The position numbers and the translations under genes are program-made. From a virus: a stretch of 26,985 nt of DNA. The notes below the pieces were generated by a model. That model searched no databases and was not told the origin of the DNA. It saw nothing but the letters and a program-made list of their open reading frames with translations. The stretch covers positions 1 through 26,985 of IMG/VR virus record IMGVR_UViG_3300020442_002583. One strand, written 5' to 3'. Shown piece after piece: positions 40 to 21,721 of the stretch (the first letter of the stretch is position 1; each line of letters opens with the position of its first letter).

Positions 40-68
40 ATCCTACACTGTTTTTTCGCGTTTGTACA
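40..68 (-). promoter_or_regulatory. Early-type promoter, TGTACA-17-TAGGAT
   Basis: On the minus strand a -35 TGTACA (63-68) is followed by exactly 17 bases and a -10 TAGGAT (40-45). Transcription should start near 33, ahead of the GAGGAG site and the ATG at 14. The same design recurs six more times in the window, which is the main support for it. Confidence 0.65.
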
Positions 69-92
69 TACTTTTGTTTTGTTTAAAATCAA

Positions 93-764
93 TCACTTAT
101 AATTTTTTTTCCAGAGCTCGTAATCTTTAGGTTCATTAATCTCTATACCGTCATCATGTACTCGAACAGTTTTAACCATATCGTTGTTCTGAATCCATCT
201 CATAGCTTCAATTGATTCTATCTTTTCTTCTTCGTATCGTGTAAATGTATTCCAACGTCTTTTTGCTTCTGGAGTATAGCCATGATAACCTAAAGCAAAG
301 TCACCATATGTTAATGCGCTGCGAACAAACCAATGTACAATATTATTTGTTTGAACCATTTTGCAAACTGTAGGATCTGCTTGTCCAGTTGTAGTCATTG
401 GCTTATGCGCCTGAATTACGTAATGATCGTCTAGTGCTTTCTCTATTGCTTTAACTACTGCAATATTAGGATCTGCTGTATCTCCCTGCACATTAATATA
501 TTTGTCGTAGTGTAGTTCATTACCTATTGCAGATAAACAACGATCAGTTCCATCTGTACAATCAGGACTTGTCCATATTACAAAATGTTTAGTAATGACA
601 TCTGCAATCTCTTGACTATCTGTAAGAACATATGTGTCATAACCAAATGTTTGACATATATCAAATACCCTACGAATCAAAGGTCGACCATCCATATCAA
701 TTAAAGGTTTGCCAGGAAATCTTGTTGATTGCATTCTAGCTGGTATTACTATTGCGGTAGACAT
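93..764 (-). CDS. CMP-sugar synthetase (KdsB-like cytidylyltransferase)
   Basis: The 223-residue protein resembles 3-deoxy-manno-octulosonate cytidylyltransferase, which activates Kdo with CTP to CMP-Kdo for lipopolysaccharide. The N-terminal nucleotide-binding signature is clear: IPAR at 7-10 and STRFPGKP at 13-20. TDGTDR at 69-74 and NVQGD at 90-94 match further conserved blocks. It is somewhat shorter than typical bacterial KdsB (about 250). The family also includes acylneuraminate (CMP-sialic acid-type) synthetases, so the exact sugar is not certain. It is the last gene of a minus-strand operon with radical SAM and glycosyltransferase-like genes, and its ATG overlaps the previous stop as TAATG. 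The context suggests supply of an activated acidic sugar for a phage-encoded surface modification. Confidence 0.85.
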   Translation of the reverse strand: MSTAIVIPARMQSTRFPGKPLIDMDGRPLIRRVFDICQTFGYDTYVLTDSQEIADVITKHFVIWTSPDCTDGTDRCLSAIGNELHYDKYINVQGDTADPNIAVVKAIEKALDDHYVIQAHKPMTTTGQADPTVCKMVQTNNIVHWFVRSALTYGDFALGYHGYTPEAKRRWNTFTRYEEEKIESIEAMRWIQNNDMVKTVRVHDDGIEINEPKDYELWKKNYK

Positions 765-1321
765 TAAAATCCTCTTTTCAGTTCAATCCATGTTGTATCA
801 AAATAAGGACACAAAAAAGACCATGAGCAATTAGGTCCTATAAATGTTTCTGCTGATGCTAGTTGTGTAACTTTATATATTAATTCATCTTCAGATTTAA
901 AATTACGTGTATCGCCTAAATCTGTGCCTGTTAAAAATTTAAAAATATTATTTTTTGATTTACTATCAATTCCCTTATCACTGTTTTTTATATCAATAAT
1001 GGAATAAGCTATGGGTAATGCACTTCCTATGTATGGCCATGGTTTAAGATATGTTTTAAATAAATCAAAAAGATCATCTCTTGTAGGATTTCTATAGTAA
1101 TCTTGAAGATCTAAAACATGATCATAATTTTCTTTACGAAAGATTGGCTCACCTTTTACCTCAAAGAAATGTTTATATGCTTCCCACATAATTTTAGCTT
1201 GATCAATATGTGAGCAATATATTATCATATCGTCTTCATGGCCAGAACGCCATGCATGATTCATGTAATTATATTGTCTCCATGTTTTACCTAAAGCATG
1301 GTTTGTTGCAAATTCCATCAT
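764..1321 (-). CDS. Glycosyltransferase-like protein, paralog of next gene
   Basis: No firm family assignment. The C-terminal third contains GDTRNFK, then an ELxxK stretch, then FIGPNCSWSFL. The gene just upstream (1318-1923) has the same series (GDSRNFK ... FIGTENSWSLL), with about half of 35 aligned residues identical by eye, so the two are tandem paralogs. The F-I-G-x-x-x-S-W-S-x-L block resembles the donor-binding motif of GT-B glycosyltransferases such as heptosyltransferases (GT9), in which a Gly-x-x-Ser/Gly loop precedes a helix. At 185 residues it is about half a normal GT-B enzyme, so it would be a single-domain or degenerate form. Two ATG codons lie in tandem; the first overlaps the upstream stop as ATGA. 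Confidence 0.6.
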   Translation of the reverse strand: MMEFATNHALGKTWRQYNYMNHAWRSGHEDDMIIYCSHIDQAKIMWEAYKHFFEVKGEPIFRKENYDHVLDLQDYYRNPTRDDLFDLFKTYLKPWPYIGSALPIAYSIIDIKNSDKGIDSKSKNNIFKFLTGTDLGDTRNFKSEDELIYKVTQLASAETFIGPNCSWSFLCPYFDTTWIELKRGF

Positions 1322-1923
1322 TTTATAACCTCCACTAAAGGATCAATATATGTTCGAACATCATTTATCTTAATACGTTTTAAACTTCTATGTGGCCAAA
1401 ACTGACATAGATGCATACATGGAATATGAAGATCTTTGGCCAACAATGACCATGAGTTTTCTGTACCAATAAATGCTTTACTATTTAAAAGATTTACAAA
1501 TTTGCTATCTAGTTCTTCAGCATTTTTAAAGTTACGAGAATCTCCTATGTTAATCTGATCGTGTAAAAGATCTTCCATCATGTCATGCATAGCATTATCA
1601 ATGCCTTTATATGATGCACCAAAGCTTGCATCTTTTTTATCTTTTATAGCCATAGAATATGAGAACTTATTATTTTGTTTTCTTTCAGTTTTAAGATAAT
1701 CAAAAAAGGGTAGGTTAGGTTTTATATTCCATTCACATTTGCCCTTTTTGATTTTAGCATTTTTTAGAAATTTACTATTGAAATGATTTAAATAAACTTC
1801 TTTATATAACTCCATAGTTTTTATATCGTCACTATATATTACGGCCTCTTCATCTTCTAAAACATCGATAGTAAGGAAGCTCGACCATGTGTTATGCAAT
1901 GCACCACTTGTATTATGGTTCAT
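1318..1923 (-). CDS. Glycosyltransferase-like protein, tandem paralog
   Basis: This 201-residue protein of unknown function shares the C-terminal block GDSRNFK ... FIGTENSWSLLAKDL with its neighbour at 764-1321. The continuation after SWSLLAKDLHIPCMHL follows the order seen in GT9-type enzymes (small loop, helix, 'xP' strand), better than in its paralog. No nucleotide-sugar-binding N-terminal domain is recognisable. It overlaps the SPASM-like gene by 11 bases, so it is in the same operon. The function in sugar transfer is an inference from the motif and the neighbours. Confidence 0.6.
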   Translation of the reverse strand: MNHNTSGALHNTWSSFLTIDVLEDEEAVIYSDDIKTMELYKEVYLNHFNSKFLKNAKIKKGKCEWNIKPNLPFFDYLKTERKQNNKFSYSMAIKDKKDASFGASYKGIDNAMHDMMEDLLHDQINIGDSRNFKNAEELDSKFVNLLNSKAFIGTENSWSLLAKDLHIPCMHLCQFWPHRSLKRIKINDVRTYIDPLVEVIK

Positions 1924-2464
1924 ACCAATCCTCTAAATGTTTATACTTTTCATATTTTTCTTTTATTTCTTCTTTTGTTTTTACATTCCAAAATCCATGA
2001 CGTACACCCTTTTCAAAAATCTCTTTATCTCTTTCATGCAGTTTATCCGATAATCTTTTACTTTCTACATCTTCTGGCGTAAATGCAGCATTAACTCCAG
2101 GTTCTACAGTATCGGATATTTCATTATCGCAGAATAATTGACACATATGAGGCATTGTCTTATATGATTCCCATGACTCTGGTAAATCTTTATTAAACCA
2201 ATCAGATGTAAGAATTTCTTTTAAAGTTTTATGGTTTAAATTATATTGTTCTTTATTGTCTGTATATTTTTTTAACACAGCATTTTCAGCAAAAGCACGA
2301 CCGCCTGGATTATCTGTATGTTTCGTAGCTTCATATAGATATGCAGGATTTCCTAGATAACAACAAGGTAAAACCTGTCCATCTGGATTCACTAATATTT
2401 TCTCATCATTAAGCCAGCGACATATTATATTTGGTTTTTTATCTTTCATACGCGGTTTTTTCAT
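1913..2464 (-). CDS. SPASM-like Fe-S domain protein, partner of radical SAM
   Basis: The 183-residue protein looks like the C-terminal SPASM/twitch part of a radical SAM enzyme standing alone. It has Cys15 in a CRW context, then VNPDGQVLPCC (Cys34, Cys35) and Cys108 with Cys112 in a CxxxC pair. In full-length family members such cysteines hold auxiliary 4Fe-4S clusters after a core radical SAM domain. That core is encoded by the gene directly upstream (2439-3239), overlapping by 26 bases in another frame. The ATG lies inside a run of six A, so the split could be real, programmed frameshifting, or a homopolymer error. It probably works together with the upstream product. Confidence 0.7.
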   Translation of the reverse strand: MKKPRMKDKKPNIICRWLNDEKILVNPDGQVLPCCYLGNPAYLYEATKHTDNPGGRAFAENAVLKKYTDNKEQYNLNHKTLKEILTSDWFNKDLPESWESYKTMPHMCQLFCDNEISDTVEPGVNAAFTPEDVESKRLSDKLHERDKEIFEKGVRHGFWNVKTKEEIKEKYEKYKHLEDWYEP

Positions 2465-3239
2465 CTTGCTGTCCAGTAAGTTTATTATCAGTAATTGTAT
2501 CTAAATTATGTCTGTTGTGTGCATTTTGTGATGCTGTATTAATCCAAGGGTTTTGAATAATTTTATCTAAAGATTTATTTGTAATAGCTTCTAAGACATC
2601 TTCCTCTCCGTCTTCATTTATAAATTCAAACTTATTACTAGTCAAAAATCTATCTGACTTAATTACATGTACATGTTCTGCACCATACATCATACACATA
2701 TCTTTTATATCTTTAACGTGATTTTGATTATGTTTAAAAAGTATAGTAAAGGCTTTTGCTATACCGCCTGCAGACGATAACGCTTCCATATTATCTAATA
2801 CTGTTTGTAGATCTACACCTCTCCTATACTTTTGATGCATCTCATTGTTTATCCCATCTACATCAAAATATACAGTTAATCTTTTACCACAATAATTACC
2901 TAGATCTTCCCACCAAGCTGTAGTTCTCATTCCGCCATTTGTATTAATATGTACTTCTGCTTTTGAATTATCAATTACATATTTTGCAATTTTACCTATA
3001 TCTCTACTCATTATAGGATCTCCCCATGTACCGCATATTTCAAACATGCTCACTCCATCTATCGACTCTGGAGGAAACTGTCTTACAAAATCTTCGAGTG
3101 ACCATTTAACAAGCGGCAGCCATTCAACTTTACCTAATCCATTTGGATCAGTACGATGACACTGAGGACACGAGGCATTACAATACGTTGATAAGTCTAA
3201 CCAGACTTTACATTCTTTTACTAAATCTTTGAATTGCAT
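2439..3239 (-). CDS. Radical SAM protein (core domain)
   Basis: The 266-residue protein has the radical SAM cluster motif CxxxCxxC at Cys20, Cys24 and Cys27, preceded by WLDLSTYC as is usual for SPASM-type enzymes. Further family features are a GDP step in 'TWGDPIMS', a NTNGG strand and the 'FDVDGINNEMHQKYRRG' segment, typical of enzymes that compare a peptide or sugar substrate. It would cleave S-adenosylmethionine to start radical chemistry on an unknown substrate. The auxiliary-cluster domain is the next gene. It sits in an operon with a CMP-sugar synthetase and sulfotransferase-like gene, so a role in sugar or peptide tailoring is plausible but unproven. Confidence 0.85.
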   Translation of the reverse strand: MQFKDLVKECKVWLDLSTYCNASCPQCHRTDPNGLGKVEWLPLVKWSLEDFVRQFPPESIDGVSMFEICGTWGDPIMSRDIGKIAKYVIDNSKAEVHINTNGGMRTTAWWEDLGNYCGKRLTVYFDVDGINNEMHQKYRRGVDLQTVLDNMEALSSAGGIAKAFTILFKHNQNHVKDIKDMCMMYGAEHVHVIKSDRFLTSNKFEFINEDGEEDVLEAITNKSLDKIIQNPWINTASQNAHNRHNLDTITDNKLTGQQDEKTAYER

Positions 3240-3823
3240 ATTTTTTCTAAATACTCTATTGTTTTTTCTGGCTCTTCTAAATATTTTAATTTAGATTGGA
3301 ATGAATCAAAAATTTTATGTTTCCATTTGTCTTCTCTTTTTATAACTTCATCGAATGAAGTTTTATAATCATATCTTGTCCATTGATTTAATAGTTTTAA
3401 TTGAAATAATATACCACTACTACATTTCAATACAAAAGAATATGGAACTTTAATATTATCAAAATGTGATAATACATCAGTTTTAGTTGTTTTACCTGGT
3501 CTTATATTCCACCAAGTTTCTCCAGCTTCACGCTCTTCTAGTTCAGCTAATGAATTTTTGTATAGTGGTATTATATTAGATAACATATGATCTACTAAAT
3601 CATTTCTTGGAAAAAGAATATGAACTTCACAAGAATCTAATAATGGAAAGTAAAAGTCAGGATACATAAAAAATTTATCTAATCTTACTTTTACAACAGA
3701 TTTATTAGGAACAATCATTTGTTCCCCTAAATTTTTAATCTTTCTTTCAATTGCTATATGATGCTGATAAAATGTAGAAGCACATCTAGCAACGGTCAAA
3801 ATTAAAACATTATCTGATTTCAC
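3221..3823 (-). CDS. Sulfotransferase-like protein
   Basis: The 200-residue protein opens with ILTVARCASTFYQ (8-20), which matches in layout the 5'-phosphosulfate loop of PAPS-dependent sulfotransferases ('xxRSGSTxL'). It then has ILFPRNDLVDHMLSN (69-83), resembling the 3'-phosphate motif 'RxPxDxxxSxxxx'. The fit is partial, so sulfotransferase-like is the safe wording. The start is GTG at 3823, with AAGGA seven bases upstream; the nearby ATG is out of frame and stops at once. It is the first gene of the operon that starts at the minus-strand late promoter 3847-3854, and it overlaps the radical SAM gene by 19 bases. Confidence 0.6.
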   Translation of the reverse strand: MKSDNVLILTVARCASTFYQHHIAIERKIKNLGEQMIVPNKSVVKVRLDKFFMYPDFYFPLLDSCEVHILFPRNDLVDHMLSNIIPLYKNSLAELEEREAGETWWNIRPGKTTKTDVLSHFDNIKVPYSFVLKCSSGILFQLKLLNQWTRYDYKTSFDEVIKREDKWKHKIFDSFQSKLKYLEEPEKTIEYLEKICNSKI

Positions 3824-3846
3824 AATTTCATCCTTAAATTATACTT

Positions 3847-3858
3847 TATTTATAAATA
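3847..3858. promoter_or_regulatory. Palindromic two-way late promoter
   Basis: The 12 bases TATTTATAAATA are a perfect palindrome. They contain the T4 late-promoter box TATAAATA on the plus strand (3851-3858) and again on the minus strand (3847-3854). The plus copy points to the gene at 3889 and the minus copy to the gene at 3823, the only divergent gene pair in the window. In T4 this box is read by the phage sigma factor gp55 with no -35 element; use by a gp55-like factor here is inferred. Confidence 0.8.
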
Positions 3859-3888
3859 CCAATGGAACAGGAAAACGAGGACGTCAAG

Positions 3889-4371
3889 ATGATCGATCCG
3901 GTAACAGCTATCGCTGGTGCTACGGCAGCATACAATGGTCTGAAGAAGGCTATTGCTGTTGGTAAGGATTTGCACGATATGGGATCTACCCTAAATCAAT
4001 GGGCAGGTGCTATGTCGGATTTAGACTTTGCTCATAGGCAGGCTGAAAACCCACCTATGTTCAAAAAAGTATTTGGTGCAAGTCAAATTGAGCAAAACGC
4101 CTTAGAGACATGGGGACATAAACAAAAAGCAAAAGAGATGAGAGAAGAATTAAGATCTCATATTAGTTTATTTTATGGTCCTTCTGCTTGGGACGAGATA
4201 GTTAATATTGAAGCGCAAATGCGTAAACAACGAAAAGAAGCAATATATAAAGCTGCAGAACGTAAGCAACTAATTTTAGAATGGATTGTTGGAACCATAG
4301 TAGTAGCACTAGGAACTGGTGCAATGATTGGAATAATCTATCTTATTGGTAAAGCAAACGGATCTTGGTAA
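3889..4371 (+). CDS. Membrane-anchored phage protein, unknown function
   Basis: The protein of 160 residues begins MIDPVTAIAGATAAYN and ends with one strong membrane segment (about the last 30 residues, rich in Ile, Val and Gly). The middle is a charged helical region likely to form a coiled coil. I recall similar proteins in marine T4-like and T7-like phages, annotated only as hypothetical. An upstream ATG at 3862 is in frame, but it lacks a ribosome binding site and lies at the expected transcription start of the late promoter. The ATG at 3889 has GAGG eight bases upstream, so I chose it. It leads a plus-strand late operon of eight genes. Confidence 0.75.
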   Translation: MIDPVTAIAGATAAYNGLKKAIAVGKDLHDMGSTLNQWAGAMSDLDFAHRQAENPPMFKKVFGASQIEQNALETWGHKQKAKEMREELRSHISLFYGPSAWDEIVNIEAQMRKQRKEAIYKAAERKQLILEWIVGTIVVALGTGAMIGIIYLIGKANGSW

Positions 4372-5374: not shown

Positions 5375-5590
5375 ATGTTTGAGATATTTAAAGGGTTTGT
5401 ATTATTCTTATTTGTTGATGGTACACCTATAGAATATACTCCAAAGGAATCATTATCAGATTGCCTAAAGACAAAAAGAGAAATAGCAAGAAATGTTGGT
5501 GAAGCTGGTAGATATTCTTGTGCACAAGGTGAAGTAAAGATGCAAGAAATCAATGGTAAAAAATTACCAGTTGGATTAGTAGAAAAATGA
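5375..5590 (+). CDS. Small exported protein with a cysteine pair
   Basis: The 71-residue protein starts with a hydrophobic stretch (FKGFVLFLFV) that may act as a signal peptide or anchor. It has two cysteines, in LSDCLKTKRE and GRYSCAQGE. The same arrangement (hydrophobic start, acidic-C-hydrophobic helix, then a second cysteine 15-30 residues on) recurs in four minus-strand genes at 6542-8159. The two cysteines probably form a disulfide outside the cytoplasm. Its stop overlaps the next start as ATGA. Confidence 0.6.
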   Translation: MFEIFKGFVLFLFVDGTPIEYTPKESLSDCLKTKREIARNVGEAGRYSCAQGEVKMQEINGKKLPVGLVEK

Positions 5591-5868
5591 TTCAGGTTAC
5601 TGACAGCGCTAAAGAGTATCTAAAAAAAGTAGGTAAGCCAAACGTATCACTTGCTGTTAAAGGTGGTGGATGTGCAGGCTTTCAATATGAATGGGGAGTC
5701 ACTGATGCAGAACCCACAGTTGAAAATCTATGGTTAGATCCTATGGCAGAAATGTTTATCTTCGGATGCACAATTGATTATGTTGAGGAATTGGGTGGAT
5801 CTTTTTTAAAGGTAATTAACCCTAATGCAACAGCAAGTTGTGGATGCGGAGAGAGTTTCGGTGTTTAA
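5587..5868 (+). CDS. A-type iron-sulfur carrier (IscA/ErpA family)
   Basis: The 93-residue protein has the three conserved cysteines of A-type carriers: Cys29 in GGGCAGFQYEW, and Cys85 and Cys87 in ASCGCGESF. The YVEELGGSFLKVINPN strand before the last pair also fits, where most family members have SFxxxNPN. Length is normal but slightly short (usual about 105-120). Such proteins receive and deliver Fe-S clusters to target enzymes. Here it may help mature the phage radical SAM proteins or replace a host carrier late in infection, as it sits in the plus-strand late operon. Which of IscA, ErpA or SufA it is closest to cannot be told by eye. Confidence 0.9.
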   Translation: MIQVTDSAKEYLKKVGKPNVSLAVKGGGCAGFQYEWGVTDAEPTVENLWLDPMAEMFIFGCTIDYVEELGGSFLKVINPNATASCGCGESFGV

Positions 5869-6106
5869 AAAAACAAGAGAGAAGTTTAAAAAAAGATTAA
5901 AAGAGTTATGGAATGTCGATAGCATCATAGATCTTATGGTGGATTTTTTACTCTTAGTCTTTGATGTTATCTACTCACCAATTCTTATTATTGTTAGATT
6001 GATTCGTCATTTCTTTAACGAATGGATTGTCAATACAGTTAAACGTTTTTTAAAGTGGTTTGCTCATAAGATATTGAGAATACCAGAAGTAAAGAAAGTA
6101 AAATAA
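5861..6106 (+). CDS. Small basic membrane protein
   Basis: The 81-residue protein (from the GTG start) has a highly basic N-terminus, a long hydrophobic stretch of about 30 residues (SIIDLMVDFLLLVFDVIYSP and on) with a few acidic residues inside, then a second amphipathic basic part. An ATG at 5825 is also in frame but would overlap the IscA gene by 44 bases. The GTG at 5861 has GGAGAG seven bases upstream, so I prefer it. A role as a holin or membrane-disturbing peptide is possible from shape and size alone. The next gene follows with a one-base overlap. Confidence 0.6.
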   Translation: MFKKTREKFKKRLKELWNVDSIIDLMVDFLLLVFDVIYSPILIIVRLIRHFFNEWIVNTVKRFLKWFAHKILRIPEVKKVK

Positions 6107-6576
6107 TGTACGAATACAGAGCAACAGTATTAAGAGTCGTAGATGGTGATACAGTAGATGTAGATATAGATCTTGGCTTTGGCATATGGATGAAACGAGA
6201 ACGAGTAAGAATGATGGGTATCGATACACCTGAATCACGTACTCGAGATAAAGTAGAGAAAGCTTTTGGTCTTGCAGCTAAAGAAAGACTACGAGAACTT
6301 TTACCTGTAGGTTCTAGTACAGTACTTAAAACTGAGATCGATAAAAAAGGTGAAGACGCAAAGGGTAAGTTCGGAAGAATCCTCGGAGACTTCTATGTGT
6401 ACCATGCTAAGAAAGATGCAACAGTCAAAGCTACTTCAATTCTTATTGAAGAAGGTCATGGTGTAGAATACCACGGCCAATCAAAAGAAGAAGTACATGA
6501 AGCACATCTTGAAAATAGAAAACTTTTAATTAATGCTGGAATTATAGACCCAGAGATTTTAAATCCTGATCAGTAG
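6106..6576 (+). CDS. Thermonuclease-family nuclease (SNase-like)
   Basis: The 156-residue protein matches the staphylococcal nuclease fold, a calcium-dependent phosphodiesterase for DNA and RNA. The catalytic set is present: DGDT at 13-16 (metal-binding Asp15), Arg35, Asp40 and Glu43 in RVRMMGIDTPE, and Arg91 in GKFGRILG. There is no clear signal peptide, so it probably acts in the cytoplasm, for example in degrading host DNA, or is packaged. Its 3' end overlaps a convergent minus-strand gene (6542-6763) by 35 bases. It closes the plus-strand late operon. Confidence 0.9.
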   Translation: MYEYRATVLRVVDGDTVDVDIDLGFGIWMKRERVRMMGIDTPESRTRDKVEKAFGLAAKERLRELLPVGSSTVLKTEIDKKGEDAKGKFGRILGDFYVYHAKKDATVKATSILIEEGHGVEYHGQSKEEVHEAHLENRKLLINAGIIDPEILNPDQ

Positions 6577-9169: not shown

Positions 9170-9198
9170 TTTATATCACATTAAAAAGGGTTTGTACA
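9170..9198 (-). promoter_or_regulatory. Early-type promoter, TGTACA-17-TATAAA
   Basis: A minus-strand -35 TGTACA (9193-9198), 17 bases and -10 TATAAA (9170-9175) lie upstream of the gene starting at 9144. Both this site and the one at 40-68 continue after the -35 as AAC. The rest of 9145-9239 is A/T-rich and contains no gene or convincing terminator. Confidence 0.65.
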
Positions 9199-9487: not shown

Positions 9488-9904
9488 TTATTTATAGAAT
9501 TTTTCATATAAATCGCGTTCTAAATTGTGAGCTTCTATTTCCCATGGTTTATCATCATATGCCATATCCCATGGATATTCAGTCTTCTCATATACAATAA
9601 CATCACCAGTTGGTTGTGTCATTTTATTTGTAGCATACTGATATACATGTACCATTTCGTGAAGTACAGTGGATATTAATTCTTTACGAGCTTGACTAGT
9701 ATCAACTCTTATTGTATACTCTCGATCATCTTCATCAAGTACATCGCCATGTACTCCTTCTTTTTTACGAAGATTTTTTACAAAGTGTACAGTAACAGAA
9801 AGTTTGCGATGACGTGGCATAAGCTCGTTCTTTGCAAACCACAAGGCAGATTCAACTTCTTCTTGAATTGCCTTTTTAACATGTCCGTAATAATCAATAA
9901 TCAT
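9488..9904 (-). CDS. SprT-like zinc metalloprotease
   Basis: The 138-residue protein has the zinc motif HEMVH at 82-86, preceded by a helix (ELISTVL) and followed after about 35 residues by WEIEAHNLE, whose glutamate or histidine can supply the third ligand. This layout fits small SprT/Wss1-type or related phage metallopeptidases. SprT-like proteins often act on DNA-bound proteins, but the phage substrate is unknown. The -10 of its promoter ends only six bases before the ATG and there is no ribosome site, suggesting a leaderless message. It overlaps the late promoter of the next gene at its stop codon. Confidence 0.75.
   Translation of the reverse strand: MIIDYYGHVKKAIQEEVESALWFAKNELMPRHRKLSVTVHFVKNLRKKEGVHGDVLDEDDREYTIRVDTSQARKELISTVLHEMVHVYQYATNKMTQPTGDVIVYEKTEYPWDMAYDDKPWEIEAHNLERDLYEKFYK
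9489..9496 (-). promoter_or_regulatory. T4-type late promoter box TATAAATA
   Basis: An exact TATAAATA is on the minus strand, overlapping the stop codon of the SprT-like gene and lying about 31 bases ahead of the ATG at 9458. Together with 3847-3858 these are the only exact copies I found in the window. It would switch the small-protein block (9458 down to 6542) on late. Confidence 0.65.
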
Positions 9905-9910
9905 AAAATG

Positions 9911-9939
9911 ATTCTAACACAAAACAAATCAAATGTACA
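9911..9939 (-). promoter_or_regulatory. Early-type promoter, TGTACA-17-TAGAAT, leaderless
   Basis: A minus-strand -35 TGTACA (9934-9939), 17 bases and -10 TAGAAT (9911-9916). Only six bases separate the -10 from the ATG at 9904, so transcription should begin at or next to the start codon. A second TGTACA lies at 9947-9952. The -35 side overlaps the stop of the upstream gene. Confidence 0.65.
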
Positions 9940-12526: not shown

Positions 12527-13149
12527 TTTCTTAACTCTATAATATAGCTATCTGGCTCTCCTGTAAGCTTGCGATTATCGTGCCTAATAATCTTCATTTT
12601 TGATTTTTCAATCTCTGCTAGGAACATATTATTTTCTAACGCGTTATATCTATCCGGATGTCTAAGCAACCATGGATGTTTGAGTTCTTCTAGCGACATA
12701 GATTCAAGAGGAAAAACGTCTTCAATAAAAAACGTACCGCCTTCTTTTAAGAAGATTGACAAATATCTAAATGTCATTTTATTAGCTAATGGCGTATGCA
12801 TACCATCATCAATAATAAAGTCAAACTTTACATCTCCAAACTTTTGCATAAGTTGAGTTTTGACTGATGGTTCAATACTACTTGCTTTTAAAAAATGTGT
12901 ACGATCTTTTTTATAACAATTCAGATCTTCTGCTTTTGTTCGAGTAAAAATATCTAATCCGTAGAGATTGGCTTTAGGCAAATATTCATGAAAGGCTTCA
13001 GTACTATGACCATTAAATACTCCAACTTCTAGAATATTAATTTCTTTGTCTTTAAATTTTTCAAAGACCGGTTCATAGATACGATCATATTGATGCTTTT
13101 GAGTTTTATCACATCCGTATTTGTTGAATAGATTTCCTAATTCACCCAT
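12523..13149 (-). CDS. SAM-dependent methyltransferase
   Basis: The 208-residue class I methyltransferase has motif I LEVGVFNGHST (40-50), the acidic motif II around YGLDIF, the FDFIIDDGMHT motif and GGTFFIEDV. The YGCDKTQKHQYDRIYEP start and IDDGMHT resemble the TylF/CmcI group, which often O-methylates sugars. In a cassette with glycosyltransferases and a sulfotransferase, O-methylation of a sugar is a sensible inference. It overlaps both neighbours by a few bases. Confidence 0.85.
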   Translation of the reverse strand: MGELGNLFNKYGCDKTQKHQYDRIYEPVFEKFKDKEINILEVGVFNGHSTEAFHEYLPKANLYGLDIFTRTKAEDLNCYKKDRTHFLKASSIEPSVKTQLMQKFGDVKFDFIIDDGMHTPLANKMTFRYLSIFLKEGGTFFIEDVFPLESMSLEELKHPWLLRHPDRYNALENNMFLAEIEKSKMKIIRHDNRKLTGEPDSYIIELRK

Positions 13150-13840
13150 AAGTTAATCTCCAATAATTTTTAGTTGGACCGGTATCGAAGTCATATCCCC
13201 ACATTTCAATATCATCTTTATACCAATCGGCAATAATCTGACGTGACTTATCGTTGTACATATCCATGTAAGTTCCTGGATTCAAAGCAGTTACATTTCG
13301 TGCACGAGACATTTGTACTAATCCAAAATATTCTTTGAGATCTTCGTTTAAGTTCTCAAATCTAATTATATCACATTTCAGAGTACCATTTTCATCACAT
13401 ACATGATCTGTCGCAGGATACCAACCACGTACAGCACGATGCCACATAAAATCATGACTTCCCCATTTATGTCGTTCTTCTAGAAAGGCATCAAAGCTCG
13501 AAACGTCTGCATATGATGGGTCCATTTTCTTTTCAACTTCAATAACTTTCTTTGCAAAAAAGTAACGACTAACGACCCTATCCCAAGGATTACGAACCAC
13601 AGCAAAAGCACGAAAACGGCCTGTATAATCTGGGTGAAGGTCTCTCCATCTAGCATGTTCAATTCCATGATGATCTCCTGTCAATGCCATTGTATCTAAT
13701 AGTTGTTGAGTATATTCTTTACTCTTATGTGTATTTGAACCATTAACTAATATTTTTTCTTTTAAGAAAACACTGTGTCGTATTGTCATTCCAGCATTCT
13801 TTGGAATATGCACAAATATTTTTCTATTATCAACCAACAT
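13142..13840 (-). CDS. Carbohydrate sulfotransferase (Sulfotransfer_2 type)
   Basis: The 232-residue protein has both PAPS-binding motifs: FVHIPKNAGMTI at 9-20 (5'-phosphosulfate loop) and VVRNPWDRVVSRY at 81-93 (3'-phosphate loop with Arg83 and Ser91). IIRFENLNEDL is also typical. Such enzymes move sulfate from PAPS to sugar hydroxyls. It is the clearest of two sulfotransferase-like proteins in the window; the other (3221-3823) lies in the separate sugar operon. The target is probably the glycan made by the neighbouring glycosyltransferases. Confidence 0.9.
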   Translation of the reverse strand: MLVDNRKIFVHIPKNAGMTIRHSVFLKEKILVNGSNTHKSKEYTQQLLDTMALTGDHHGIEHARWRDLHPDYTGRFRAFAVVRNPWDRVVSRYFFAKKVIEVEKKMDPSYADVSSFDAFLEERHKWGSHDFMWHRAVRGWYPATDHVCDENGTLKCDIIRFENLNEDLKEYFGLVQMSRARNVTALNPGTYMDMYNDKSRQIIADWYKDDIEMWGYDFDTGPTKNYWRLTYG

Positions 13841-14630
13841 ATTTCATAAGCTCCTCTACATTTTCACCACGTGCAGGAAGTTTATCTTTCAAAAAGAAGT
13901 GTACAAAATTACACTCTGGGATTCTATCCATTTCGATTCCAGTAAATAAACCGTTCCAATGATATGTCAGATTTTTTACACTCATTTTACTTTCTTTTAC
14001 GAAAACATTGAGAAGAGTTTGATCAGTTGACCATTTCCAATTTCCCATTCCATCAATGAATGCTTTAAATTCTGGTCGCATTAAAAATTGCATAGGCGTT
14101 TGGCCTTTGAGATATTCTTGAAAACCTGTATTTAACACCATCATTCCCATGTTATAGAAGTTAGCGCCACCAGGATGTTTCCAATCAAATAACTTATTAA
14201 GTGGATTCATACCATATTGCATACGTGTATAGTTTGCAATCTTACGAGTGTATGCTTCAGTTGTTGGCATTTCTCGTTCTAGTACTCCACCAAAATCATA
14301 TTCCGCCGGCACTTTATCAAAAATATTAGGAGCACCTGGACGAATCCAAATGTCAGCATCAATAATTGCAACCTGATCTTTAGTCTTTAAATACGTAAAG
14401 GCGTTTTCCTTCTCAAAAATTGGAAGGAAACCACCGTGTTTTTCATATGACTCTTTACTACGATTAGTAGCAAAGACATCAGGTTTAATTTTTAGGATTG
14501 GTTGTTTTTGCACAACATGTTCTATGTTGTGAGCTTTACAATAATCTTTTACAGATTCTACGCAGTGATCATAAAGTCGCGACCTTTTTCCCACGTATAC
14601 CTGATATATGACTCTTTTCTTCATATCCAT
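13830..14630 (-). CDS. GT-A glycosyltransferase
   Basis: The 266-residue protein has AIIDADIWIRP, with the DxD pair Asp91/Asp93, then a region ending in NMGMMVLNTGF and a STDQTLLNVF helix that resembles the GT8/GT-A acceptor region. CNFVHFFLKDK near the end matches the C-terminal histidine that completes the metal site. It would act on an NDP-sugar in the cytoplasm. An in-frame ATG lies two codons later. Its first 62 bases overlap the end of the short gene 14569-14829. Confidence 0.75.
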   Translation of the reverse strand: MDMKKRVIYQVYVGKRSRLYDHCVESVKDYCKAHNIEHVVQKQPILKIKPDVFATNRSKESYEKHGGFLPIFEKENAFTYLKTKDQVAIIDADIWIRPGAPNIFDKVPAEYDFGGVLEREMPTTEAYTRKIANYTRMQYGMNPLNKLFDWKHPGGANFYNMGMMVLNTGFQEYLKGQTPMQFLMRPEFKAFIDGMGNWKWSTDQTLLNVFVKESKMSVKNLTYHWNGLFTGIEMDRIPECNFVHFFLKDKLPARGENVEELMKYVG

Positions 14631-14829
14631 ATTCTTCTAAAATAATATCAGCAATTTCAATCGCACGCTTGTATCGTGTTCTAAGTCGATTAGAACCTTT
14701 ACCATTACCTTTAAACCATATAAGACTATCTATACAACCATTCTTATACTCTTCTGGAATGCGATAGCGTCTAATTATTTCTTCATATTCGGTACGTAAG
14801 CTAAGCAGATTCGCCAGTGATATACTCAT
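14569..14829 (-). CDS. Small helical protein, unknown function
   Basis: An 86-residue protein starting MSISLANLLSLRTEYEEI. The frame is open further upstream, but AAGGA lies five bases before the ATG at 14829 and a longer product would overlap the HAD gene. It has a Cys-containing helical middle (EEYKNGCIDSLIWFKGNG) and a basic Arg-rich helix. No family is recognised. It overlaps the genes on both sides (28 and 62 bases). Confidence 0.6.
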   Translation of the reverse strand: MSISLANLLSLRTEYEEIIRRYRIPEEYKNGCIDSLIWFKGNGKGSNRLRTRYKRAIEIADIILEEYGYEEKSHISGIRGKKVATL

Positions 14830-15403
14830 AGATGTCCTTCCATCTTGCAAAGGTTGGGAATGTAGTATTGTGCATATTATGCGCATGCTCAACCATAATT
14901 GATTCAAGACCAAGATCGTTACCGAGCTCAGCATTTTGAAATTTATCTTCGATCCAGATAAGACCGGTATCTCGATATGGTTCTAGAACCTCATCTTTAT
15001 CTGCACCAGTATCACAAAATATGAATTTAGTAAAAGCAGTATCGCCAAATAACTTTTTAGTATTTTGAATACGAAGCTTTTGAGCATGTTCGTTATTTGA
15101 AAGAGCAGTTATCATATGAAATGTATAACCATGTTTACGATGTAGAAGATCTACATAATACATTGCATCTCGAAGAGGTGGTAAGAAACCCATAGCAGCG
15201 GATTCATTGAAACGCCTAACAAGCATTTTCTTGTCAAAATGACTTAAGTCGTAACGATCACCCATATCATAATGTTCTTGACCGTCTTCAACGATCTCAT
15301 ATCCTTGAGATTGCATCCAGACATTCATAGCATATTCCCAATTCATGAGAACGCCATCACAGTCAGTTAAGATTATTTTATCTAAATTATTTAAGTCTTT
15401 CAT
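14801..15403 (-). CDS. HAD-type phosphatase, possible 5'(3')-nucleotidase
   Basis: The 200-residue protein has the HAD motifs: DCDGVLMNW (Asp14 and Asp16) in motif I, MITALSNN in motif II and LIWIEDKFQNA in motif IV, with a cap between. DxDGV with a short cap fits 5'(3')-deoxyribonucleotidase-type enzymes that remove phosphate from nucleotides; other small phosphates are possible. I chose the ATG at 15403 because AAGGA precedes it and because the promoter -10 (15424-15429) overlaps the region where the longer frame starts. It is an early-type gene with its own promoter. Confidence 0.85.
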   Translation of the reverse strand: MKDLNNLDKIILTDCDGVLMNWEYAMNVWMQSQGYEIVEDGQEHYDMGDRYDLSHFDKKMLVRRFNESAAMGFLPPLRDAMYYVDLLHRKHGYTFHMITALSNNEHAQKLRIQNTKKLFGDTAFTKFIFCDTGADKDEVLEPYRDTGLIWIEDKFQNAELGNDLGLESIMVEHAHNMHNTTFPTFARWKDIYEYITGESA

Positions 15404-15423
15404 ATAATTTCCTTTCATATTGT

Positions 15424-15452
15424 ATACTACCACATTTTTAATGGAATGTACA
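15424..15452 (-). promoter_or_regulatory. Early-type promoter, TGTACA-17-TAGTAT
   Basis: A minus-strand -35 TGTACA (15447-15452), 17 bases and -10 TAGTAT (15424-15429). Transcription would start near 15417, leaving a short leader with AAGGA before the ATG at 15403. It rules out the upstream GTG at 15433 as the start of the HAD gene. Confidence 0.65.
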
Positions 15453-15461: not shown

Positions 15462-16139
15462 TTATATTACTCTTTGTCTGTTTCTTTTATGATACAGCTC
15501 AATAGTTTCGTGAAGCTTGTCTGTCCAATTATCACGATGCTCTTTATATGTGAGAGCTCTACCATTATCAACATCCATAATGATTACAAGGTTAGGCATA
15601 GCCATACCAGTACGTTCTTCCCACATAATAGAATATGCACAAGCTTGAATAAAGTAATGATCAAGCATAGATTTCTTTTTAGGGAATCGAGAGGTTTTAA
15701 AATCGACAATACTGTTTACATTATCAAACATACAAGCACAATCACATGTGCCAGCTAATTTAAGATGATCACTATATAATGGAACTTCTTGATCGTAAAT
15801 AATATTCATACGCTTTTCAAGAATAGGTTTCATATTAGTTAGACTTTGCATGACATGTGGTAACACGCCTTCTGCATAATCAGGATCATTAAGTAGATAT
15901 TTTTCTATAAGAGTATGAACCGCAGTGCCACGAGTTGCAGCTTTGTGTCCTATCTTGTTGGCTTCTTCTTCGCCGACCTTAGCTCGCCATTTAGCAATCT
16001 TATCTTCGTTAAGAATAGAGGTTACAGTTGTAACGCTAGGATATGCCACACCTTCTGGAGTGACATACCTGCGTTTCTCGCCATCTTCTCTTTCTAGAGT
16101 TTCATAGCCTAAGTCAATTTTTTCATGTATATAATTCAT
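15462..16139 (-). CDS. PD-(D/E)XK nuclease (RecB/Cas4-like)
   Basis: The 225-residue protein has the PD-(D/E)XK core: a helix with ATRGTAVHTLIEKYL, then Glu118 (QEVPLYS), Gly130-x-x-Asp133 (AGTCDCA), Asp146-Phe-Lys148 (VDFKTSRF) and a Gln165-x-x-x-Tyr helix. This fits phage exonucleases related to RecB and Cas4. It would degrade or process DNA ends during replication or recombination. The promoter -10 ends six bases before the ATG and there is no ribosome site, so a leaderless message is likely. Confidence 0.85.
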   Translation of the reverse strand: MNYIHEKIDLGYETLEREDGEKRRYVTPEGVAYPSVTTVTSILNEDKIAKWRAKVGEEEANKIGHKAATRGTAVHTLIEKYLLNDPDYAEGVLPHVMQSLTNMKPILEKRMNIIYDQEVPLYSDHLKLAGTCDCACMFDNVNSIVDFKTSRFPKKKSMLDHYFIQACAYSIMWEERTGMAMPNLVIIMDVDNGRALTYKEHRDNWTDKLHETIELYHKRNRQRVI

Positions 16140-16145: not shown

Positions 16146-16174
16146 ATTCTAACACGAATTAACGTGTTTGTACA
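16146..16174 (-). promoter_or_regulatory. Early-type promoter, TGTACA-17-TAGAAT, leaderless
   Basis: A minus-strand -35 TGTACA (16169-16174), 17 bases and -10 TAGAAT (16146-16151), ending six bases before the ATG at 16139. The layout copies the one at 9911-9939 exactly, including AACTG before the -35 region. An 18-base inverted repeat fills the space between the two boxes. Confidence 0.7.
16151..16168. promoter_or_regulatory. Operator-like inverted repeat in promoter spacer
   Basis: AACACG and CGTGTT, separated by six A/T bases, form a perfect inverted repeat lying exactly between the -35 and -10 boxes. A dimeric repressor bound here would block polymerase. No other promoter in the window has the same repeat. 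Confidence 0.5.
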
Positions 16175-16182: not shown

Positions 16183-16650
16183 TTACATTAATTCAAAATG
16201 AGGTCCATCAATAAATGGTCGACGGCCTTGTGATCGACGTAAATCTACATAAGCCATCATAGCATCTTCAGCCGTACCTTCGTATGTACGAATATCGCCT
16301 TCAGACCAAGCTGCGCCCCATTTAACAGCAACACCTAATTCTTCGGCAGCTGCTTTAAATGCATCAGCAATATCGTCATATACATTAATTTCCCATACAA
16401 CATCTGAACCGTCATATGCCACAACATCAACAGCATGTGAATAACCAGAATCTTGAATAAGATGTTTTGATTTCATAGTTTGAGATCTGCCTGATGCTAC
16501 AAGCTTCTCTTGCTCTTCAACAGTACGAACACCGTATGTAACGCCGAAATCTACTTTAGTTAATTCAATTGCACGTTCTACTACGGCGACCATATCTGGA
16601 TGTACTCCTTCGAGTTTACCTTTTGATCGATTTGATAGTTTAAATGCCAT
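16183..16650 (-). CDS. Endolysin, M15 L-Ala-D-Glu peptidase
   Basis: The 155-residue protein matches phage M15 peptidoglycan endopeptidases that cut the L-Ala-D-Glu bond of cell-wall stem peptides. It has NRSKGKLEGVHPDM, FGVTYGVRTVEEQ, the zinc-ligand region KSKHLIQDSGYSHAVDVVAY (His63, Asp75) and the final PHFEL histidine. Compared with the shortest form of this site, five residues are inserted between the His and Asp ligands, a variant also known in the family. There is no signal peptide, so a holin or pinholin is needed. AGGAGG sits five bases before the ATG, one of the best ribosome sites here. The spanins are at 21784-22480. Confidence 0.9.
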   Translation of the reverse strand: MAFKLSNRSKGKLEGVHPDMVAVVERAIELTKVDFGVTYGVRTVEEQEKLVASGRSQTMKSKHLIQDSGYSHAVDVVAYDGSDVVWEINVYDDIADAFKAAAEELGVAVKWGAAWSEGDIRTYEGTAEDAMMAYVDLRRSQGRRPFIDGPHFELM

Positions 16651-16659: not shown

Positions 16660-17355
16660 CTATAGGTTTAGCATTTCTTTTGTCATAATATAGTCTCTAA
16701 CAAAATCAGATCGGACAATATCTTCCCATCTAAAATTGATTATATCAAAGTTTTTTAATTGTTCAACAATAGACAAGAATCTATATATTCCTTGTTTATC
16801 GTCATCATATTTAAAATCTGTCTGTAGATGATCTCCTGAAAATATAATACGAGAATCTCTACCAACTCTTGTAATAACAGAATCTAATTCGTGAAAATTA
16901 AGATTCTGCATTTCATCAACAAGAATCACAGCGTTATCTACTGTAACACCTCTAATAAAAGATGTTGATTCAAATTGAATTTTATTCGAAGATATAGCTT
17001 TACTCCAAGATCCTTTATCGCCAAATAAATCACATGCGATAGCTTTGTACGGAGTAATATAAGCTTCTTCTTTTTCTACTTTAGTACCAGGCAAATATCC
17101 CATATCTCTTGTAGGTACCATAGATCTTACAATAATCAACCTATCTTGTAAACTATTAGGATCTAAAACAGCTTCTAAACCAAGATACATTCCGACAAAA
17201 GTTTTACCAGTTCCTGCAGATCCTGCTAGTACTAAATTAAAATCATCATCCCATGCTTCAAAAGCTTTATTTTGGTTTTCGGTTAATGGTTCATACTCTA
17301 ACAAATCATCTAGACGAACCGTCATAGAATTGTTCGGTTGCTTATTCCGTTTCAT
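16660..17355 (-). CDS. phoH: PhoH-like ATPase
   Basis: The 231-residue protein has Walker A GSAGTGKT at 45-52 and Walker B VILVDEMQN, with SGDHLQTDF downstream as in PhoH/SF1-type ATPases. PhoH-like genes are very common in marine myoviruses and serve as a marker gene. In bacteria phoH is linked to phosphate starvation, but the phage role is unknown; RNA-related ATPase activity has been proposed. The start overlaps the stop of the FmdB-like gene as ATGA. Confidence 0.92.
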   Translation of the reverse strand: MKRNKQPNNSMTVRLDDLLEYEPLTENQNKAFEAWDDDFNLVLAGSAGTGKTFVGMYLGLEAVLDPNSLQDRLIIVRSMVPTRDMGYLPGTKVEKEEAYITPYKAIACDLFGDKGSWSKAISSNKIQFESTSFIRGVTVDNAVILVDEMQNLNFHELDSVITRVGRDSRIIFSGDHLQTDFKYDDDKQGIYRFLSIVEQLKNFDIINFRWEDIVRSDFVRDYIMTKEMLNL

Positions 17356-17588: not shown

Positions 17589-17616
17589 GACTATCTCTCG
17601 TTTATAGTAATATATA

Positions 17617-18180
17617 TTAAGCTGCTACCTTAAACCACTCAGGTATTTGTCGACGTGTCCAAACCATTTTAAATCGATCTTGCTTTGTTTGGTAATATTC
17701 TTGATAAGATCTTACAGGTTCACCTTCATGAATACATTGTGGTTCATGTGTCATTGCAAGAGCGAATGGTGTTAGCTTCTCACTGTAATTAATATTACGC
17801 GGAGCATCTCGTAATACATCTGTCAACAGAGTTTCTGTACTGTGAGTTTTACCATAGCGAAACCGATATTCGATACATAAAGCTTTCCAGTGATGATAAT
17901 GCCATATGTAATTAGCAACAGATTGCATAGTCCATACAGTACATGGATGACCCATATGCACGGCTTTGTATAAGGTATTTTCCATATTATGATTTGGATG
18001 TACCCAATATTTTACCATGCGTTTGCCGGATTTTGAAGGACGTTTTGTTTCCTCACCGTCAAGCATACGATGAGCTGTTGATAACATTTGAGCCGACTCG
18101 ACGATCATTTTTACAACATGCTTGTCACATTGTAATTGAGCAGCTACGATTGGATCTGTGTCTAGGATGAAAATATTCAT
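17617..18180 (-). CDS. Conserved T4-like phage protein, unknown function
   Basis: The 187-residue protein starts MNIFILDTDPIVAAQLQCDK and continues HVVKMIVESAQMLSTAHR. This opening is widely conserved in marine phages as I recall, always without a named function. Many His, Trp and Cys residues (HYHHWKALC, MGHPCTVW) may form a metal or active site. A GAGGGGG ribosome site precedes the ATG, and a promoter with a palindrome at its start point lies upstream. Regulated, early expression suggests a host-takeover or nucleotide role. Confidence 0.8.
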   Translation of the reverse strand: MNIFILDTDPIVAAQLQCDKHVVKMIVESAQMLSTAHRMLDGEETKRPSKSGKRMVKYWVHPNHNMENTLYKAVHMGHPCTVWTMQSVANYIWHYHHWKALCIEYRFRYGKTHSTETLLTDVLRDAPRNINYSEKLTPFALAMTHEPQCIHEGEPVRSYQEYYQTKQDRFKMVWTRRQIPEWFKVAA

Positions 18181-18196
18181 GTATACTATCCCCCTC

Positions 18197-18242: not shown

Positions 18243-18254
18243 CTCCTTTTTTTA

Positions 18255-18407: not shown

Positions 18408-18452
18408 GTATAAGTGTCTCCTTAAAAGTAAAATAAGTCACATAATCATAAT

Positions 18453-18869: not shown

Positions 18870-18885
18870 ATTAACCTCATCTATA

Positions 18886-19281: not shown

Positions 19282-19285
19282 AGGG

Positions 19286-19438
19286 TTATATATCTATGTA
19301 TTCGTCCGAGTCTAATTCAAGCGCATTGTTCTCTTCACCGCAAAAAGGACAATACTCAACAACCATATCCGTTTCACAATATATTTCTACTTCAACATCG
19401 CAATAATGGCATTCGACTACAAAATGTTTTTCTTTCAT
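19286..19438 (-). CDS. Small zinc-ribbon protein, 50 residues
   Basis: The protein starts MKEKHFVVECHYCDVEVEIY and continues to EYCPFCGEENN, with an acidic tail ending LDSDEYIDI. CxxC ... CPFCG is a clear four-cysteine zinc ribbon. Its ATG overlaps the stop of the ribonucleotide reductase gene as TAATG, so the two are co-translated. A role as a partner or regulator of that enzyme, or as a general nucleic-acid or protein adaptor, is possible but open. Confidence 0.7.
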   Translation of the reverse strand: MKEKHFVVECHYCDVEVEIYCETDMVVEYCPFCGEENNALELDSDEYIDI

Positions 19439-21654
19439 TAAAAGTCAATCTCGCAAGCTCCACCTGCACAAGCTGCCGCACCTAATGTATCAACATCAGT
19501 ATACTTCTTTTCGGTCAGGTCATGTTCCCAACTGATATCCTTGAAATTAGCATTAATCTTATTCCACTTATGTAACAAATAAGAATCCTTCAAACAATAC
19601 TCAGTTTCTTTTAAATTGCCATCTAGATAATTATTTGCAAAGTTGTTGAACCTACGAATCCAGTCTTTCTTTAATGCAGTTTGTGTAGACTCAACTGATA
19701 GGTCTTCACCCATACCTTGAGCCGTAGAACAAGCATTCCAAAGATTATCAAATGCATTGAGTGCATCAACAACTAAGCCACTTGCAAAGATGGCAGCTGT
19801 TCCGTATTTATCAACCATAGTATTTGCATCAATAACGCCAGTGTTTGGAGCTTGATTAAAGTCTTTGTCACCCATTGCAGATAAGAATGAAATACCAGCA
19901 AAGCTACGACGATTCTTAAATACATAGCTTTCAACTTCATCCCAATCTTTTACGATAATAGTATTTGACACGTTATGACGAATACCTTTATCAGCACATA
20001 GCTCTTCGTTTGTACCAGCATTTACCCAATGTTCTTGAGCTAGTTTAACTTTTTCAAGATGGTCTACGCCAATCAATTCATCTTTGAGCATTGATCCTTC
20101 TTTTGGTAAGATAGGAAATGAAACAACTACGTCTGTTCCGCCTGCTGACCAAACTGATTCTTCAACCATATGAGGATTTGTTTTTTGTATAGCCTGAGTC
20201 ACCTCAGATTCTTTATTCATTTGAACATTACGTATGTACATATTAGAATGCTCAGCGTGAATACCACTAGCAGTTTGCAATAGAACCGAAGCATTACCGC
20301 TTGGCTTGACACAAGTCGTTCTAGCCGCTGCATTGATTCCAATAACTTCTGCAACTTCTCTGTTGACTTGTCTGACAATGTTTGCCCCTTCCTCAAGTAT
20401 TTCTGCATTAAATAAAATATCTGGATTATTCATCCAACCAGTGATCGATACTCCAAGTAAAGCTTCACGATCAAAAATATCTTTAGTTGTATCTGGTAAG
20501 AATTTAAAATCAGTGTATCCTGCCTGAAGCGTACCTAAGATCGCACCAGCGCGGCAGGCAAGAAAGAAATCTTCTTTAGTTACACATTTACCACCATTAA
20601 TCTCTGTAAGATTACATCCCTGCCATCCAGACTTACCGTCTATTTGTGGGAACATTCCTATCTCAACACATGGATTAGTTGTATGTTCTGTTGATTCTAC
20701 AAATACAAAACCAGGTTCACCAAACTCTTTTACCTTAGTCATGATATTACTAAATTGTTCTTCTGTAGTTTCATCACGTACGATTACAGCTGAGTTGTTT
20801 GATCGTCCACGTTGTGGATTATCGACAAACCAATTACCTGTTTTAGCTGACATCATTTCTTCATCGTTTGGTGAGAAGAGACATATGGTTGCTGAACGAC
20901 GAACACCACCAGATAAAACAGCATCAGCTTCATGCATACAAATATCATATACATTAATTGGACGTAGAGCAACAGATTCTTTTGTATCGATCACAATGTC
21001 TTGTAATAGATGTTCAATCTTATCGAGAGCACGACGTAGTCCATCAGGTCCTGGTGCTTTAAATCCACCAGAGATTTTAGATCCTTTTGGTCGAATGTTT
21101 GATAAATCAAAATAGACTCTGCGACCAGCGTAATCTGGATATTTACCACCATCTACAAAATATGATGACATAAGAACATCAACCGCAGTTGCCCATCCTT
21201 CAATATCATCTGTTACTGTATGTGTTTTTGCTGGTTTATTTCTAGCTATAACTTTAGGTAGTTTTGCAACATGGTGTTCTTGAACAGAAAATCCTGCACC
21301 GGCACCACATAATAAAATATAGAAAATCTCACCAAAGAATGCTGGACGATCAGCATAAGAAGATGTACAGTTGTACATTCTCATTTGGTGTTTTAGCAAC
21401 TGTTCTCCACCGAACTGAAGGGCACGTTGTGCTCCTAAAACTCGTTGCTCTTTATAGGCTTGCCTAGCTTCTTCTAAATAAGACTTTAATCCGTTTTCTT
21501 TTTCTTTATATTGATTCGCGTGCATTTCGATTACGCGATCTACAGCTTCCTCCCATGTTTCGTATCTTTCATTGTTATCGTTAAAGCGTGAGTAACTATC
21601 GTAGAATTTCGTTTCGGACAAAAGTCTACGTGTGTCAACAGAAGCTGTTGCCAT
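19438..21654 (-). CDS. nrdJ: Class II (B12-dependent) ribonucleotide reductase
   Basis: The 738-residue protein resembles adenosylcobalamin-dependent ribonucleoside-triphosphate reductase, which makes deoxynucleotides without oxygen. The likely active-site set is visible: Cys96 in RMYNCTSSY, Cys329 and Glu331 in TTNPCVEIG, and Cys347 in GWQGCNLTE. The C-terminal redox pair is Cys729 and Cys734 (AACAGGACEIDF). VLSGGVRRSATICLFS is the conserved substrate-loop region. The length fits the monomeric class II type. A ribosome site AAGGA precedes the ATG at 21654. It has its own promoter, with a repeat pair upstream resembling NrdR boxes, and is followed by a zinc ribbon and a GIY-YIG gene. The enzyme would depend on cobalamin from the host or sea. 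Confidence 0.92.
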   Translation of the reverse strand: MATASVDTRRLLSETKFYDSYSRFNDNNERYETWEEAVDRVIEMHANQYKEKENGLKSYLEEARQAYKEQRVLGAQRALQFGGEQLLKHQMRMYNCTSSYADRPAFFGEIFYILLCGAGAGFSVQEHHVAKLPKVIARNKPAKTHTVTDDIEGWATAVDVLMSSYFVDGGKYPDYAGRRVYFDLSNIRPKGSKISGGFKAPGPDGLRRALDKIEHLLQDIVIDTKESVALRPINVYDICMHEADAVLSGGVRRSATICLFSPNDEEMMSAKTGNWFVDNPQRGRSNNSAVIVRDETTEEQFSNIMTKVKEFGEPGFVFVESTEHTTNPCVEIGMFPQIDGKSGWQGCNLTEINGGKCVTKEDFFLACRAGAILGTLQAGYTDFKFLPDTTKDIFDREALLGVSITGWMNNPDILFNAEILEEGANIVRQVNREVAEVIGINAAARTTCVKPSGNASVLLQTASGIHAEHSNMYIRNVQMNKESEVTQAIQKTNPHMVEESVWSAGGTDVVVSFPILPKEGSMLKDELIGVDHLEKVKLAQEHWVNAGTNEELCADKGIRHNVSNTIIVKDWDEVESYVFKNRRSFAGISFLSAMGDKDFNQAPNTGVIDANTMVDKYGTAAIFASGLVVDALNAFDNLWNACSTAQGMGEDLSVESTQTALKKDWIRRFNNFANNYLDGNLKETEYCLKDSYLLHKWNKINANFKDISWEHDLTEKKYTDVDTLGAAACAGGACEIDF

Positions 21655-21692
21655 TGCAATTTCCTTTATATAAATGATTTTCCTTATGTGGT

Positions 21693-21721
21693 ATTATATA
21701 TCAAAACCACGACTTTGTAAA
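21693..21721 (-). promoter_or_regulatory. Early-type promoter of nrdJ, TTTACA-17-TATAAT
   Basis: A minus-strand -35 TTTACA (21716-21721), 17 bases and a perfect -10 TATAAT (21693-21698) lie about 40 bases before the nrdJ start. The 10 bases AAGTCGTGGT (21706-21715) next to the -35 also occur in the promoter at 18214-18242. Confidence 0.65.

Follow-up and report, generated by a model that had tools for sequence, protein, structure and literature searches.

Which polymerase reads a promoter whose −35 word is consistently something other than TTGACA? The question is raised by a 26,985-nucleotide (nt) stretch of viral DNA, positions 1 to 26,985 of IMG/VR record IMGVR_UViG_3300020442_002583 (hereafter the window), in which an original prediction had described seven minus-strand promoters that combine TGTACA, or a close variant, with a TATAAT-like −10 box. 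All seven are present letter for letter as predicted, and we consider them probable T4-type early (pre-replicative) promoters, served by the host sigma70 polymerase and written in a new dialect of the −35 box. The seven sites, with the genes that follow them and the related contigs that keep them, are:

40..68, minus strand: putative early-type promoter, TGTACA-N17-TAGGAT; same −35, −10 and spacing in L132, L175, L162 and L194; the downstream gene starts at about 14 (Shine-Dalgarno GAGGAG) and runs off the window
9170..9198, minus strand: putative early-type promoter, TGTACA-N17-TATAAA, before a 97-amino-acid gene (8851-9144); kept in L013 and G002
9911..9939, minus strand: putative early-type promoter, TGTACA-N17-TAGAAT, before an SprT-like gene (9488-9904); kept in L140, TTTACA in G004
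15424..15452, minus strand: putative early-type promoter, TGTACA-N17-TAGTAT; followed by a phrog_420 gene (14801-15433, likely start 15418 or 15403); kept in L006, L011 and G011
16146..16174, minus strand: putative early-type promoter, TGTACA-N17-TAGAAT, before an exonuclease gene (15462-16139); kept in L006, L007, L009, L011 and L013
18214..18242, minus strand: putative early-type promoter, TGTACT-N17-TATAAT; followed by 17617-18180 (phrog_624, DNA-binding protein) and then a gene run to phoH; kept in L006, L007, L010 and L012
21693..21721, minus strand: putative early-type promoter, TTTACA-N17-TATAAT, before the ribonucleotide reductase gene; TGTACA in L007

The spacer measures 17 nt in 7/7 sites, five of which carry TGTACA itself. 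Against shuffled sequence, the strict pattern TGTACA-N17-TANNAT gave four window matches where 0.19 were expected, and 0/100 shuffles reached four; with the variants of the original prediction included, nine matches stood against a shuffle mean of 0.56 (maximum 3 in 300 shuffles), and the same pattern at spacings of 12–16 and 18–23 nt yielded 0–2 matches each. Seven of the nine precede genes. The other two, both TTTACA (12165-12193 and 17124-17152), lie inside genes and had rightly been left off the predicted set; the match at 12165-12193 encodes F-T-N-K-L-D-Y-D-T of a glycosyltransferase, where conservation of the coding sequence seems to account for it. Chance or base composition might be invoked, given an AT-rich genome and a generic sigma70 scan of the first 20 kb that returned 82 sites against 92 expected; that scan, however, found no excess because it was built around TTGACA, and the nine matches at a single sharp spacing, together with conservation in orthologs and recurrence genome-wide, refutes an artefact, to which we assign a negligible probability.

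The sites also sit where promoters should, and the outcome named as refuting the prediction, equal frequency within genes and in front of them, was not seen. Across 12 contigs of the clade, 69/114 TGTACA sites with a 17-nt spacer were intergenic and within 100 nt of a same-strand gene start, compared to 14/76 control sites at other spacings (odds ratio 6.8, P 8e-9). Each of the seven window sites has an orthologous site in relatives (whose contigs are fragments with mechanically called gene starts) in which the hexamers are kept, the spacer sequence has diverged and its length is held at 17 nt, sometimes through compensating indels. In a set of 80 PhoH relatives, the distance from TGTACA to TANNAT peaked at 17 nt with 66 sites, against approximately 7 at most other spacings, and the corresponding 17-nt counts for other words were 46 for TTTACA, 23 for TGTACT and 10 for TTGACA. 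Peaks at 19 and 22 nt were also seen in some contigs, the former taken as a second TANNAT register within TATAATAT.

One part of the original prediction did not survive this comparison, namely the weight placed on TGTACA being a palindrome. TTTACA substitutes freely for it: the promoter at 21693 has TTTACA in the window and TGTACA in L007, a near relative, and such swaps between the two words recur among relatives. On the replacement by TTTACA and the lack of any symmetric extension we reject a palindrome-binding protein; the 8-bp palindrome GTGTACAC occurs in 4/132 sites, and no TGTACA flanked by a −10 box on both sides was found. The palindrome is incidental.

The same design is used throughout the longer genomes of the clade, with 19 TGTACA-17-TANNAT sites in G015 (167,756 bp), 14 in G016 (112,994 bp), 15 in G020 (67,696 bp) and 20 in G021 (130,182 bp), nearly all on the gene strand. 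In the long relatives, early-type promoters precede gp43, uvsX, gp41, gp45, gp61, nrdA, cobS, gp32 or gp33 and runs of small genes, and TATAAATA late motifs precede gp13, gp18, gp4 and others. The studied sites are thus placed before early and replication genes, not late ones, and do not have the T4 late layout (TATAAATA at −10 and no −35 box), which occurs separately and before other genes. TTGAC at 17 nt reached only background in all clade contigs, and the −35 box is not the sigma70 consensus TTGACA. What stands of the prediction, then, is a single real promoter class with a −35 preference systematically unlike TTGACA (GT at hexamer positions 2-3, with TG at background). From this design and its distribution we infer that the sites act as promoters, that they fire early and which polymerase reads them.

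To describe the full element, we derived a position weight matrix from 228 non-redundant sites, in which the invariant hexamer letters were set by the search pattern and the flanks were free. The consensus reads A-tract, G-T-[G/T]-T-A-C-[A/T], N12, TRTGn, TATAAT. G occupies −36 in 58% of sites, the hexamer is T[G69/T31]TAC[A77/T23], and twelve loosely constrained bases lead to T[A/G]TG, a free base (mostly G), TATAAT or TAGAAT, and A, so that the 17-nt spacing to a TATAAT-like −10 comes with a GT-rich TGn extension. Upstream, A makes up 49–69% at −9, −8, −7, −5 and −4 from the hexamer, with A/T throughout; at TGTACA sites the A-tract holds 56% A versus 34% at a flanking position, as in a UP-like stretch. 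Among the 157 TKTACA sites of the clade contigs, 120 are TGTACA and 37 TTTACA, with G at −36 in approximately 60%. In the window and in G002, G006 and G008, the −10 is TAGAAT, not TATAAT (G at position 3 in 57–80% of sites); this usage in the window's close relatives is a second, narrower dialect shift. The promoters of G021 also share a ATTAATTCGTC-like start of the spacer, possibly a further element conserved within its lineage.

The distance from the −10 box to the first long-frame ATG, evaluated at 369 sites, was bimodal. A broad far peak at 20–40 nt mostly accompanies a Shine-Dalgarno-like word, and a near peak at 5–7 nt contains 55 sites (~15%), with none at offsets 2–4 and one at offset 8. 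Because the near peak coincides with the expected transcription start, the approximately 15% of sites with ATG at +1 probably give leaderless early mRNAs, and the sharpness of this peak lends independent support to promoter function. Two window sites have an ATG 6 nt after the −10 and so probably give leaderless transcripts: 9911-9939 (SprT-like gene) and 16146-16174 (exonuclease gene).

These features recall the early promoters of T4, which carry GTTTAC at −36 to −31, an A-rich stretch at −40 to −44 and GT-rich sequence 5′ of −12, with G at −33 preferred in RB49, RB43 and Aeh1 (PMC1524935), and which are composites of UP, −35, TGn and −10 elements read at once by the host sigma70 polymerase (PMC2988021). 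In T4 itself we counted 34 minus-strand and 1 plus-strand sites of TTTAC[A/T]-N17-TANNAT; G stands at −36 in 91% of them, and their extended −10 is rich in TRTG. The studied sites share with these the parts and their positions, the fixed 17-nt spacing, G at −36, TRTGn, the placement before early and replication genes and the reservation of TATAAATA for late genes; in their TTTACA subset, the −35 word is identical to that of T4. They differ in that the group mostly has G at −34 (GTGTACA) and often A rather than T thereafter, that the window's near relatives use a TAGAAT −10, and that ATG falls at +1 in ~15% of sites and never does so at T4 sites, where it always lies at least 20 nt after the −10 (n = 26).

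Tabulation of all 16 dinucleotides at hexamer positions 2-3 (T-nn-AC-W at 17 nt) gave one clear class per lineage: TT in T4 (35 sites), TG in HTVC008M (18), S-PM2 (16), Melnitz (24) and C48C1 (13), and GT in the studied group (e.g. 23, 14, 15 and 26), with TT second. Cyanophages, the Pelagibacter phage HTVC008M, the Methylophilales phage Melnitz and phage C48C1 thus share the 17-nt spacing with the studied group, and HTVC008M also has TRTG before the −10, but they use TTGAC and show TGTAC at background. As a composite, the early promoter would depart from those of known T4-like phages solely in its −35 word, GTGTACA (alternatively GTTTACA) in place of GTTTAC (T4) or TTGAC (cyanophages, HTVC008M, Melnitz).

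Read in this way, a T4-like phage would set a strong composite promoter before its early and replication genes. An A-rich UP-like stretch (about −40 to −45) is followed by a −35 box at the place where sigma70 expects one and, after exactly 17 nt, by TATAAT or TAGAAT preceded by TRTGn. As infection begins, the host polymerase and its housekeeping sigma would recognise this promoter directly: sigma region 4 would contact the −35, region 3 TGn, region 2 the −10, and the C-terminal domain of the alpha subunit the A-tract; the extended −10 and the A-tract would compensate for a −35 other than TTGACA, and late genes would be served separately by TATAAATA.

The original prediction had proposed instead that a host sigma factor with an altered preference or a phage-modified polymerase may read the sites. 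Neither is required, as T4 early promoters of the same layout use host sigma70 polymerase (PMC1524935, PMC2988021), and our searches for a dedicated reader in the clade contigs were negative. MotA and AsiA profiles (PF09114, PF09010) had no match in these possibly incomplete contigs and a strong match in T4; a Mot box (GCTT, 11–13 nt before the −10) produced no common peak in the clade contigs, compared to a peak at 12 nt (16 sites) in T4; and tblastn recovered no Alt, ModA or ModB homologs there, one weak partial match in G023 (E 0.09) being ignored. A T4 middle promoter, with a MotA box (TGCTTtA) centred at −30, likewise has a word peculiar to the phage ahead of its sigma70 −10, but the word studied here lies at −35, and as neither the genes nor the box were found in the clade contigs we reject a MotA/AsiA middle promoter. 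This fits the reported lack of identifiable middle promoters in marine T4-like phages (PMC9004378). A phage-encoded sigma region 4 was also rejected: of two sub-threshold matches, that in G015 is a 47-amino-acid frame inside another gene, and that in G023 covers 22 positions of a 202-amino-acid protein with the look of a helix-turn-helix DNA-binding protein. Gene-content comparison with outgroups gave no convincing clade-specific regulator, the proteins shared by the clade and absent from outgroups being mainly MazG-like, dCMP deaminase-like and other metabolic ones. Since none of these candidates was found, the host polymerase is the simplest account.

Several points weigh against it. TGTACA fits the E. 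coli −35 consensus at only 4/6 positions; there is no obvious reason for a TTGACA-preferring host to lean towards GT at positions 2-3 throughout a group; strongly diverged proteins of the MotA or AsiA kind would escape the Pfam profiles; and the transcript starts are predicted from sequence. A phage factor is the more serious competitor, though we think it unlikely: carried in the virion or made at once on infection, it could be a MotA-like activator or an Alt-like polymerase modifier that moves the −35 preference of region 4 from TTG or TTT to TGT, or it could itself bind GTKTACA at −36 to −30. Its best argument is that the word is essentially restricted to T4-like phages. When a viral contig collection was scanned with TGTACA-N12-TGTGKTATAAT, 113/119 unbiased loci had T4-like relatives among the matches listed, versus 55/120 for the TTGACA version, again among the matches listed (Fisher P 4e-18; the TGTACA pattern with an 18-nt spacer had 44 matches in all). 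A word set by the host sigma alone should appear in other phages of the same hosts. On a gp43 tree, moreover, 3 changes suffice for the labels TKTACA and TTGAC, compared to 11.2 when they are shuffled, with one large TKTACA clade, C48C1 (TTGAC) nested within it, and the distant lineage G015, near Sinorhizobium phage phiM7, bearing the same word apart from it; a quick, less resolved uvsW tree needs 5, of which 2 are forced. Judged by these label changes, the dialect appears clustered yet switched more than once, at least three changes on the gp43 tree being a further point for a phage factor. On the other side stand the empty searches for MotA, AsiA, Mot box, Alt, ModA and ModB, the lack of a standout conserved regulator and, in 167 kb, the lack of a TTGAC class for immediate-early genes.

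That the hosts' housekeeping sigma recognises TKTACA through a changed region 4.2, and that the phages simply follow suit, is more improbable still. The nesting of TTGAC-using C48C1 within the clade is what a host switch would yield, but the word is almost never met in other phage types, and the contigs range over 31–47% GC and several environments. Among other Pseudomonadota genomes, TGTACA-N14-TGNTATAAT occurred in 0/119 and TTGACA-N14-TGNTATAAT in 1/119, both so rare that the sample is not decisive. Apparent host use in a Rhodobacteraceae metagenome-assembled genome (G012, Water_Bin34; 96 TKTACA sites versus 53 in the reversed control) was rejected, as the clustered TGTACA sites that were inspected lie on mis-binned T4-like phage contigs (gp43, gp41, gp46, gp44) and not on host genes. 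This bin is contaminated by at least three T4-like phages (L265, contigs C69, C114, C251 and others) with three gp43 genes.

The window itself is, on the strength of the T4 core genes carried by related contigs, a fragment of an uncultured T4-like phage. Its genes include PhoH, a class II ribonucleotide reductase, a phrog_298 exonuclease, an endolysin and a SegE-type GIY-YIG endonuclease, and it is rich in sugar, sulfate and methyl transferases; by gp43 of a relative, the nearest isolates are phage C48C1 (51.6%) and cyanophages (~45%). Weak hints point to an alphaproteobacterial host: the endolysin gene (16183-16650) shares 73.6% DNA identity with its counterpart in Roseobacter phage CRP-345, a 55-kb, otherwise unrelated phage, which suggests gene exchange as well; the reductase is 62% identical to a Rhizobium phage reductase; and a PhoH relative is present in a Rhodobacteraceae bin. 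Other features of the window are:

19438..21654, minus strand: class II (B12-dependent) ribonucleotide reductase gene
16660..17355, minus strand: phoH-like gene (phrog_170), the query that found the relatives
9489..9497, minus strand: candidate late promoter word of T4 type, CTATAAATA, within the terminal part of gene 9488-9904
3847..3858, both strands: TATTTATAAATA, T4-type late word between divergent genes 3221-3823 (minus) and 3862-4371 (plus)

As a late word readable on both strands, TATTTATAAATA is also found at G004 36644, G015 123968 and T4 116450, and between its divergent genes in the window it may act as a two-way late promoter. Two regions (93-3823 and 10535-14630) are dense in cytidylyltransferase, radical SAM, sulfotransferase, methyltransferase and glycosyltransferase-like genes, possibly for surface modification, and an Fe-S_biosyn (IscA-type) gene (5587-5868) forms a plus-strand cluster with a nuclease gene (6106-6576).

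If a phage-carried factor did shift the −35 preference of the host polymerase, the phages would own a private promoter dialect, shared neither by host genes nor by competing phages. With GT, the group brings to three the −35 dialects (T4 has TT, cyanophages TG) of a single phage superfamily whose early promoter is otherwise constant. This amounts to a natural experiment on what determines the −35 choice of T4-like early promoters, of which T4's own is already unlike the host consensus. Default scanners based on TTGACA miss these promoters, and their recognition would allow early genes and transcription units to be called in abundant uncultured aquatic T4-like phages.

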